From contig WRGW01000111.1 of assembly GCA_009786985.1 (NCBI GenBank), positions 1 to 56,968 of the forward strand: a DNA stretch of 56,968 nt, given 5' to 3'. The stretch's first letter is position 1. Each line of letters begins with the position of its first letter. The position numbers were made by a program, and so were the translations under genes. Positions 12,670 to 56,968 of this stretch are shown here, piece by piece. The notes under the pieces are model-generated. The model made no database searches and had not been told where the DNA came from. It saw only the letters and a program-made list of their open reading frames with translations. Origin of the DNA: Oscillospiraceae bacterium. GTDB taxonomy: Bacteria; Bacillota; Clostridia; Oscillospirales; Ruminococcaceae.

Positions 12670-12696
12670 TATTTTAAAACCTCTTTATAAATTATT

Positions 12697-12818
12697 ACTC
12701 CGCAACGAAAGTTTTGTCAAATCGGGCAAACTTCGAGTTGCCTGCTCGTCGGCAGCGACACCGACACCGCAACTTTCGTTTTGCAAAGCCCGATTTTGCC
12801 TTTCGTTGTTTGAAATGG
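12697..12818. repeat. R3 structured repeat, copy a
   Basis: actccgCAACGAAAG..AAATCGGGC..gttgcctgctcgtcggcag..GCCCGATTT..CTTTCGTTG. Matches the copy at 56847-56960 and folds as one long hairpin. Confidence 0.85.
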
Positions 12819-13292: not shown

Positions 13293-13342
13293 TTTAGACA
13301 TAAAAACAGGACTTTACTTACAAGATAAAGTCCTGTTAAATT

Positions 13343-13707
13343 TGGAGTCGGGGAGAATCGAACTCCCGTCCGAAAACCCATCCGAGTGCATTTCTACAAG
13401 CTTATTCTCTTTACTAATTTACTAAGTCACACTTCGCCAAGAGACAGGCTAAGCACAACCGAAGTCCTTTAATGTTCTCGAAGTTACAGGACTCTCACCC
13501 CGAGAAGGGAGCGCTAATTAATGCCCATGCAAAGCCGCGCTACTCTAAGCATAGACAAGGCTACATTTAGGCAGCCATTGCAGCAGGTGCTGCGTAAACG
13601 TTATTGTTATTAGCGTTTATATTTTTGTGTCCTTCGATTAAGGAGATTAGGACGCACTCCGCTTGCTTAACACTTTTTTGAATCCCCGTCGAAACCATTG
13701 CGACCCC
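13343..13707 (-). ncRNA. ssrA: Transfer-messenger RNA (tmRNA)
   Basis: 5' end GGGGTCGCAATGGTTTCGACGGGGATTC and 3' end GGACGGGAGTTCGATTCTCCCCGACTCCA. The acceptor stem GGGGUCG/CGACUCC pairs; the tag ORF ends ..NNNNVYAAPAAMAA*. CCA is not encoded. Confidence 0.95.
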
Positions 13708-13892: not shown

Positions 13893-13925
13893 AATAATTG
13901 GCGGTCTATATTGGAACGCTGAAAT

Positions 13926-14053
13926 GTTCGGTAACACCGCAGGGCAAAGCTCTCGAAGAGCAGGCTTTGCCCTGCTTGACAGACACTCGCCTTGCACCCC
14001 TCGCGCTTCGCTCGCGAGAACCGACGAGATCGTCGTGGTATTACACCCGAACT
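13926..14053 (+). repeat. R1 cloverleaf-like intergenic repeat, copy a
   Basis: GTTCGGTAACACC...CCCGAACT ends; inner hairpins GCAGGGCAAAGC/GCTTTGCCCTGC, CTCGCG/CGCGAG and CGACGA/TCGTCG. Confidence 0.85.
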
Positions 14054-14086
14054 TTAAATAAAAACGATGAATAGGAAATCAATCAT

Positions 14087-15828: not shown

Positions 15829-15848
15829 TTCCACGTTTAAATTAAAAT

Positions 15849-16047
15849 GTTCGGTCAAGGCGATTTTTCTGCGAATAACCGTTGTTATTTAAGGAAAAAT
15901 CAACGATGTGTGGCGAAAAACAGACCGCAAATATTTGATAGTTTTTAGGTTAATCGACTATAACACCGCAGGGCAAGCTCTGTACCCCTCAATCAAAGCT
16001 CGTGAAAACCACCCCTAAAGGAAGGGGCGAGGTATTACACCAGAACT
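15849..16047 (+). repeat. R1 copy b, apparently interrupted by about 106 bp (R7 plus R6 half-site)
   Basis: GTTCGGT (15849-15855) and AACACCGCAGGGC (from 15962) would form a normal R1 left end if joined. The right end is gtattacaccagaact. Confidence 0.6.
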
Positions 16048-16073
16048 TTCAATAAATTTTCGGAGGTTGCTCT

Positions 16074-27632: not shown

Positions 27633-27696
27633 AACGCCACCCTCCTTTCAAAAAGTCTTTTTTAATCAGTAGAAATCATAAGAACCGACCTTTAAT

Positions 27697-27783
27697 GTTC
27701 GGTAACACCGCAGGGCAAGTCCTGCACCCCTCTCGCTTCGCTCGAGAGAACCGACGCAGAGCGTCGGGGTATTCACCCGAACT
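27697..27783 (+). repeat. R1 repeat, copy c
   Basis: GTTCGGTAACACCGCAGGGCAAGTCCTGC ACCCCTCTCGCTTCGCTCGAGAGAACCGACGCAGAGCGTCGGGGTATTCACCCGAACT. Confidence 0.9.
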
Positions 27784-27821
27784 TGTCAATAAACGGAATA
27801 TTTGGATTTTGAGCGAATTTT

Positions 27822-27906
27822 ATGTCGGTTGAGACAAATTTTTTGCGAATAACCGTGTATATTTAAGAAAAATTTAACGATAAATGGCGTAAAATTAGCC
27901 GAAATA
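27822..27906 (+). repeat. R7 repeat (second copy of the 15849-15940 segment)
   Basis: gtcggttgagacaaattttttgcgaataaccgtgtatatttaagaaaaatttaacgataaatggcgtaaaattagccgaaata aligns to gttcggtcaaggcgatttttctgcgaataaccgttgttatttaaggaaaaatcaacgatgtgtggcgaaaaacagaccgcaaat. Confidence 0.6.
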
Positions 27907-27919
27907 CAGATGTTTTGCG

Positions 27920-28846
27920 TTATTGGGGGTCGGTTCTAAATTCACCATATTGTGAGATTATGGACGAAATCAACTCGACTATACGACCGCTCGGTCTTTC
28001 AAAATAAGAATTGTTCAAAACAATTACACGCCCTATAGTGACTGCTTCCAATTGTGCGAACAAGTCATCGGTCTGTAAATCAGTGATTGTGAAGACATCG
28101 CTGAGCAAAATCACATCTGGCTGTTCTTCAAGCAATTGTTCTCTATTAAACTGATAGCCCACCCCCTCTTTCGCAAGATTGTCACCAAATCGAGATAAAA
28201 CTGAGCTTTCAAAAGTATCTCCAGTTGCAAATGCCATATTTTCGGTGACATATACAAAACTACCGATATTAACAGCTTCAGAATTATTTAGAACTTGCGT
28301 CAAAGGCAAAAAAGCTAAATCCCCCATTTCTTCACCAATGAACCCACCGTACAAAATCACCCCGAGCAGTCTATACATTTCTCGAAAATCCTCAACACTC
28401 TGTGGCGGTGGAAGAACTAATATTGCGATTCCTTCGCGTAAAATCGCAACCCGCGATATTTCCGCAATTGGTGAAGAAAGCAACAACAAATCAGGTGCAG
28501 CGCTCAAAATTTCGTCGACATCGAACCCGCTACCCACTTCAAAAGCTTCAATGCTACTTACACCAGTAGGATAATTACAATGAGGGCTTCGACCAATGAG
28601 CCTGTCGCCATACCCAAATTCAAACAAAATTTCAGTAAACGCTGGCGAAAGGCTGATAATTCGCTCCGGACTCTCGTAAATCGCCACACCATCAATAGTG
28701 ACCGGAAAAGGTTGCAACTCTCCCGTTTCAATACCACTGTTAGAATCGCCTGTCTCCCTCTGCTCTTCCCTATAAAAAAAGCCACAGCTTGTTGTGTGAA
28801 CCAGCATAATCAACATAACTAAACTAAATAATTGTTTTAATTTCAA
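27920..28846 (-). CDS. ABC-transporter substrate-binding lipoprotein (BtuF/FepB-like)
   Basis: Lipobox-like LVHTTSCG; PERIISLSPAFTEILFEFGYGDRLIGRSPHCNYP.. and DLLLLSSP.. periplasmic-binding fold. Confidence 0.8.
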   Translation of the reverse strand: MKLKQLFSLVMLIMLVHTTSCGFFYREEQRETGDSNSGIETGELQPFPVTIDGVAIYESPERIISLSPAFTEILFEFGYGDRLIGRSPHCNYPTGVSSIEAFEVGSGFDVDEILSAAPDLLLLSSPIAEISRVAILREGIAILVLPPPQSVEDFREMYRLLGVILYGGFIGEEMGDLAFLPLTQVLNNSEAVNIGSFVYVTENMAFATGDTFESSVLSRFGDNLAKEGVGYQFNREQLLEEQPDVILLSDVFTITDLQTDDLFAQLEAVTIGRVIVLNNSYFERPSGRIVELISSIISQYGEFRTDPQ

Positions 28847-37494: not shown

Positions 37495-37608
37495 GATTAT
37501 GTTACCTTTCCTTTTTTGCATAGTGGCAAACCCTCTGCCACCCTTTATTATACCTCAAATTTATGAATTTGTCAAGCAATTTTTCGAAGCAGTAGAAAAT
37601 TTATTGAA

Positions 37609-37695
37609 AGTTCGGGTGAATACCCCGAAGCTCTGCGTCGGTTCTCGCGAGCGAAGCGAGAGGGGTGCAGGGCTTGCCCTGCGGTGTTACCGAAC
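37609..37695 (-). repeat. R1 repeat, copy d (inverted)
   Basis: Reverse complement GTTCGGTAACACCGCAGGGCAAGCCCTGCACCCCTCTCGCTTCGCTCGCGAGAACCGACGCAGAGCTTCGGGGTATTCACCCGAACT. Confidence 0.9.
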
Positions 37696-37807
37696 ATTTT
37701 CACGCAAAGCCTGTTTTACTTTCATAATAGTTTAATAATAGCATTTTCAAAATCATATTCAATAGACTCTATTTTATAAAATTGTCGTAAAATTTAATAA
37801 AGAGTGG

Positions 37808-56756: not shown

Positions 56757-56846
56757 ATTTCATTTCCTCCGATTTTTTGGTTCTATTATGTAATGGTGCG
56801 ATAGTAAACCTCCTTGGTAACTAACGCACAGGGGTATTTGACATTA

Positions 56847-56960
56847 CTCCGCAACGAAAGTCTTATCTAATTCGGGCGAACTTCGAGTTGCCTGCTCGTC
56901 GGCAGAGCCACCGACACTGCAACTCTCGTTTTGCGAAGCCCGATTAGGACTTTCGTTGCT
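56847..56960. repeat. R3 structured repeat, copy b (near the window edge)
   Basis: actccgCAACGAAAGTC..CTAATtCGGGC..cgagttgcctgctcgtcggcag..GCCCGATTAGgaCTTTCGTTG. Confidence 0.85.
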
Positions 56961-56968
56961 CAAGATGC

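Follow-up and report, generated by a model that had tools for sequence, protein, structure and literature searches.

Four copies of the R1 repeat in one contig

The window analysed here is a whole stretch of 56,968 nt, contig WRGW01000111.1 of the Oscillospiraceae bacterium assembly GCA_009786985.1, read on the forward strand; the genome that carries it (G000), presumably of a termite-gut bacterium, comprises 1.81 Mb in 112 contigs. Four copies of R1, a repeat family of about 95 nt, were located in the window by direct reading of the sequence, and a covariance model run on the window returned exactly the same four, placing copy b at 15952-16056. All four had been claimed in an earlier note on this DNA, and their refined ends are given in Table 1. 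The genes that flank them are ordinary, encoding a diadenylate cyclase, a periplasmic binding protein, an rpiB-like isomerase, an AdoHcyase, an AIR synthase and a peptidase U32. The R1 unit can be written as AAT-G TTCGG TAACACC (three hairpins) GGTATTACACC CGAAC TTTC-AATAA, and its conserved stretch, AATGTTCGGTAACACC...GGTATTACACCCGAACTTTCAATAA, exceeds the extent first described. Above the gathering score, an Rfam scan of the window matched the tmRNA gene alone and not R1; at a low threshold, the R1 loci gave 2 weak, chance-like matches, neither of them credible.

Table 1. Positions of R1 copies, their parts and other features within the window
Feature	Position	Strand	Remarks
99-nt repeat pair	12694-12817 and 56843-56967		separate from R1; 86% identical; adjoins a 29-nt repeat
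tmRNA gene	13342-13707	-	just upstream of R1 copy a
R1 copy a	13923-14062	+	long form, 140 nt; P2 extended by about 40 nt; upstream of AIR synthase gene
R1 copy b, 5' fragment	15846-15855	+	AATGTTCGGT; direct reading
Insert interrupting copy b	15856-15960	+	about 105 nt; R2-like segment ending TTAATCGACTATA
R1 copy b, remainder	15961-16056	+	TAACACC...TTTCAATAAA; upstream of peptidase U32 gene
R2	27681-27939		second dispersed repeat
R1 copy c	27694-27793	+	complete, AAT-G...TTGTC-AATAAA; sits in left end of R2
Copy c, P1 5' arm	27697-27702	+	GTTCGG, runs on as TAA/ACC to 27709; fold, covariation
Copy c, hairpin P2	27710-27725	+	GCAGG...CCTGC; fold, covariation count
Copy c, hairpin P3	27730-27748	+	CTCTCG...CGAGAG; fold
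Copy c, hairpin P4	27751-27767	+	CCGACGC...GCGTCGG; fold, covariation
Copy c, P1 3' arm	27777-27782	+	CCGAAC, then tail TTGTC + AATAAA; fold, covariation
R1 copy d	37600-37698	-	complete, inverted; between rpiB-like and AdoHcyase genes

R1 folds as a four-way junction

Folding several copies as RNA and as DNA gave the same four-way junction each time, with a stem, P1, enclosing three hairpins, P2, P3 and P4. These correspond to the terminal stem and to hairpins 1, 2 and 3 of the earlier note, and folding reproduces all of them with a stem longer than was then stated: P1 pairs GTTCGGTAA.ACC with GGT.TTA(C)...CCGAAC, which adds TAA.ACC/GGT.TTA. Folding energies had z scores of -3.3 to -4.8 against dinucleotide shuffles as RNA, and of -2.9 to -4.4 against shuffles as DNA. 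P1 occurs as GTTCGG/CCGAAC, GTAAGG/CCTTAC or GTTAGG/CCTAAC. In other species, P3 reads CTCGCC/GGCGAG instead of CTCTCG/CGAGAG, and P4 reads CCGCCCC/GGGGCGG instead of CCGACGC/GCGTCGG. Although paired bases in P1, P3 and P4 were replaced, each of the four arms still forms in both lineages.

R1 is abundant in a handful of related genomes

Copies extend well past the window. The genome that carries it holds at least 57 matches to the covariance model, 45 BLAST matches at E<=10 and 64 R1 3' ends against 0 for a control pattern, so R1 is not a product of chance; its density there is about 1 per 28 kb. The covariance model also found R1 in four relatives (36 matches in G064, 25 in G006, 2 in G066 and 1 in G020), giving a presence in 5 of 71 genomes of the genus and an absence from the other 66. 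Across the order, sampled evenly with 399 genomes, R1 was present in the genome of the window alone. When GTDB representative contigs were scanned with the P2 pattern of the sister type, 26 contigs were recovered, all from four Oscillospiraceae MAGs; these isolates (Th196, Nt197) are presumably termite-gut samples, judging from their sample names. Phage and plasmid collections yielded no match to R1. As had been described for the window, copies lie in both orientations and are nearly all intergenic, with about 6 of 115 falling inside an ORF by crude ORF prediction.

R1 is mobile and inserts at AATAA

Copy c occupies an R2 repeat that has an empty counterpart: an R2 paralogue elsewhere in the genome (L078) reads CTTTAATAAACG without interruption, against CTTTAAT-GTTCGG...TTGTC-AATAAACG in the window. 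A systematic search found paralogous empty sites for six insertions in two species (copy c, L009, L029, L030, L124 and L127), and the same rule holds at all six: NNN-AATAA-NNN becomes NNN-AAT-G...TTTC-AATAA-NNN, with a single AATAA when the site is empty. At one further locus, an orthologous gene pair in five relatives is without the R1 copy that is present in G064, and in G006 five identical copies sit at different loci. R1 is mobile, and in one relative or more the movement is recent. The earlier proposal of a small mobile element is thus borne out by paralogous and orthologous empty sites and by a patchy distribution among species.

AATAA follows the terminal C in 86 of 100 copies, and nothing is conserved beyond AAT...AATAA(A). 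AAT flanks R1 on both sides and is single in empty sites, a pattern that is the same whether AAT is duplicated or borne by the element; because the target is nearly always AAT, a 3-bp target duplication and an element-borne AAT are indistinguishable. Six copies read TTTCAAATAA with AAT at the left, which argues against a strict 3-bp duplication. The inverted repeat GTTCGG.TAA.ACC is subterminal and asymmetric, with 3 nt beyond it on the 5' side and about 10 nt, including the target, on the 3' side. With respect to dyad symmetry or terminators at the targets, the folding energy of joined flanks was no different from that of control AATAA sites.

Miniature, long and interrupted copies

Two miniature copies (L222 and L234) are 53 nt long and consist of P1 only. 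They share the same internal deletion and a common substitution at unrelated loci, which suggests that the paired ends of P1 are enough for movement, though two separate deletions may also account for them. Because this stem-only form occurs at two places, hairpins P2 to P4 are probably not essential. At the other extreme is a long subfamily (L096, L097, L098, L099, L105, L107, L110, L112 and copy a), seen only in the genome of the window, in which P2 contains an inserted unit like AAAGCTCTCGAAGAGCAGGCTTTGCCTGCTTGACAGA.

Several other repeats meet R1. R2 has inverted ends AGAACCGACCTT(T/C)AATAA, and the same genome holds two paralogues of it that are nearly complete, besides about 30 partial ones. 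The repeat end TTAATCGACTATA adjoins 5'-truncated R1 copies in two species (in copy b of the window, and at L051 in G020), as if another element inserts or recombines at one point of R1, GGT^AACACC. In G006, about 3 kb (L215:1250-4215, contig C59) with inverted ends ..GCCATAAAACAG splits an R1 copy in the P4 loop; it encodes a membrane protein and a putative lipoprotein, carries no recognised transposase, and may be a cargo element. An element reading TCCGCAATGAAACTATTGC... interrupts an R1 copy in G000 (L226:5762-5908), and a similar sequence adjoins an R1 3' end in G066 (L221). Finally, three copies in G006 and G064 (L045, L124 and L127) sit at the identical point, ATG^AATAAGCCTGTCAAG, of another dispersed repeat, reflecting either repeated targeting or joint spread.

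The fold covaries between lineages and not within this genome

We counted paired changes on a hand-set structure taken from the fold of one copy, because the RNAalifold consensus of the mixed alignment retained only 16 pairs, with P3 misaligned between lineages. The joint cross-lineage alignment has 34 double-change cells against 9.2 expected, a count that includes shared ancestry and so stands for fewer independent events (at least 6 by eye). None of 500 shuffles reached it, and slid versions of the structure gave at most 12. Within the sister group, standard pairs make up 94.8% against 92.7% in shuffles, and double changes number 18 against 3.2, coming mostly from subfamilies with a common P4 or P1 type. 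Among 37 short copies of the window's own genome, by contrast, standard pairs show no excess (91.3%, or 0.913, against 91.1%, or 0.911, when shuffled), and the 8 double changes do not differ significantly from the 5.1 in shuffles. The compensatory changes first reported for the window are real between lineages; inside this genome they stay at the level of shuffles.

Since pairing in these copies is at the level of shuffles, resident copies in this genome decay without detectable selection for pairing and the fold is renewed in the moving lineage; it is therefore maintained in moving copies, and resident ones decay freely. A mobile element would be expected to behave in this way; an RNA serving the host would not. 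Departures from standard pairing give no significant strand bias either (74 G-U against 62 A-C). The suggestion that R1 is selected at the RNA or ssDNA level finds no support in the missing within-genome covariation, in the similar numbers of G-U and A-C, or in the search for RAYT/TnpA-Y1 genes described below. With covariation between lineages and none inside the own genome, selection for mobility can be told apart from selection for a function in the host. The two are often confused where "structured repeats with compensatory changes" are labelled functional RNAs.

How R1 may move

We favour, with a probability of roughly 0.65, the reading of R1 as a MITE-like element, about 95 nt long and non-autonomous, that is moved in trans through its paired ends at AATAA. 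P1, formed by pairing of the two ends, would be recognised as a TIR-like unit by a recombinase or transposase supplied in trans. This enzyme would cut at AATAA and either duplicate the 3-bp AAT or achieve an equivalent target-specific insertion. The fold would be selected in source copies, either for making R1 movable or for rendering it harmless when read into mRNA, and would not be selected in individual copies for service to a host gene. In keeping with this reading, R1 lies beside housekeeping genes of many kinds, among which no family recurs. A counterpoint to the MITE reading is that the subterminal, asymmetric inverted repeat of R1 is unlike a textbook TIR.

The search for the moving enzyme turned up no transposase or recombinase with matching ends. 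No parent IS with R1 ends was found among the R1 3' ends in 71 draft genomes, and drafts may miss one. Odd R1 3' ends, considered as a possible autonomous parent, were just truncated, interrupted or mini copies, and the 3-kb split copy of G006 looks like an unrelated insertion into R1. Candidates for rve and DDE_Tnp_1 were few, partial or broken matches, none of the transposase loci found had R1-like ends, and among 141 proteins encoded around R1 copies no transposase or recombinase family recurs. The missing transposase is weak evidence, since multicopy IS contigs are often lost from MAGs.

In an unlikely variant, the junction itself would be the substrate, with a recombinase reading the cloverleaf shape of extruded DNA or of a folded strand and inserting R1 at AATAA. 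Transposition would then, if this is true, be guided by shape, and any helix could change sequence provided that its pairing is kept. An improbable alternative is ssDNA transposition, in which a Y1/HUH transposase of the IS200/IS605 or RAYT type would recognise the folded strand and insert it 3' of AAT. A folded element, a short, fixed, one-sided target and an insertion readable as duplication-free would all suit such an enzyme. However, the RAYT/TnpA-Y1 partner that the earlier note had pointed to is absent from all four main hosts of R1 (no Y1_Tnp in G000, G006, G064 or G066); Y1_Tnp is present in 20 of the 71 genus genomes, mostly where R1 is absent, R1 has no GTAG tag, and its ends pair with each other rather than forming separate subterminal hairpins.

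Also quite improbable is the route put forward for the Bacillus repeat bcr1 at TTTAT, in which a short repeated motif is recombined site-specifically and no classical transposase takes part. On its opposite strand the R1 target is TTTATT, near the bcr1 motif (PMC6542083), and the ends of R1 are asymmetric; the likeness, however, is one of motif only.

We think it very unlikely that R1 is a functional RNA or regulatory element that spread for the benefit of the host, for instance as a signal in mRNA processing, termination or stability. What speaks for this is position: for sense copies the median distance is 11 nt from the preceding stop codon and 36 nt to the following start, the gaps that hold antisense copies are longer, and the distance from stop codon to R1 edge is shorter for sense copies (p about 1e-5). 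Yet copies are found in every orientation (40 sense, 30 antisense, 16 divergent and 13 convergent, by crude gene calls), own-genome copies do not keep their pairs, most genomes of the genus do without R1, and no Rfam family matches it. The position bias is also compatible with selection against insertions that harm operons and is, alone, no evidence of function. Just as improbable is SINE-like spread, in which a transcript would be reverse transcribed with priming at A-rich AATAAA: the conserved tail TTTC-AATAAA, its fading A-richness (75% and 50% A at positions 6 and 7) and the structured transcript that such an element would yield fit this, but reverse transcriptase is absent from G000, G006 and G066 (G064 has one), most copies run to both ends and lack obvious 5' truncation, and G-U is not favoured over A-C.

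R1 among known small repeats

Small bacterial repeats without known transposases, such as YPAL, bcr1 and CIR, are a long-standing puzzle, to which R1 adds a tractable new case: a well-documented small mobile family whose insertion rule is clear, with many empty sites, from an uncultured gut lineage. R1 is a new MITE-like family. A literature search for cloverleaf MITEs, or for MITEs in termite Oscillospiraceae, found nothing relevant. Like other MITEs, R1 is non-autonomous, shorter than about 200 bp (95-140 nt) and without coding capacity, and it is present in 57-64 dispersed copies.

MITEs and REPs had both been named as the closest known concepts; R1 belongs near the first and not near the second. 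REPs are palindromes of 20-40 bp tagged with GTAG or CGTC, the GTAG type often accompanied by a RAYT gene (PMC3733652). R1 resembles them as a palindromic intergenic repeat of many copies, but it reads AATGTTCGG...TTTCAATAA, is about 95 nt long, has neither tag, and has no RAYT in its four main hosts.

The MITEs RUP, ERIC and Correia/NEMIS are likewise non-autonomous, dispersed and palindromic, and they make target duplications, as R1 may, but they have TIRs at their ends and TA termini, and RUP is tied to IS630 (PMC2229807); in R1 the borders are instead AAT/AATAA, the pairing is subterminal and three hairpins lie inside.

R1 is most like bcr1 and YPAL/RU-2 in kind. bcr1 of the Bacillus cereus group is folded and belongs to the BCR set of 100-400 bp repeats; its mobility is linked to TTTAT (PMC6542083, PMC3446304). 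Both bcr1 and R1 are restricted to one group, folded, intergenic or in UTRs and present in tens of copies, and the complement of the R1 target is TTTATT; the host groups differ, and the likeness is one of description and motif. YPAL/RU-2, a 168-bp element of Yersinia and Erwinia, makes duplications of 3-26 bp at targets that span or adjoin dyad symmetry (PMC2229807). It shares with R1 its non-autonomous nature, a length below 200 bp, internal inverted repeats, ends without TA, a composition that is not A+T-rich, known empty and filled sites, being read together with upstream genes and, if AAT is duplicated by R1, target duplications (PMC2229807). R1 differs from it in having a fixed AATAA target, no preference for dyads, and a four-way junction.
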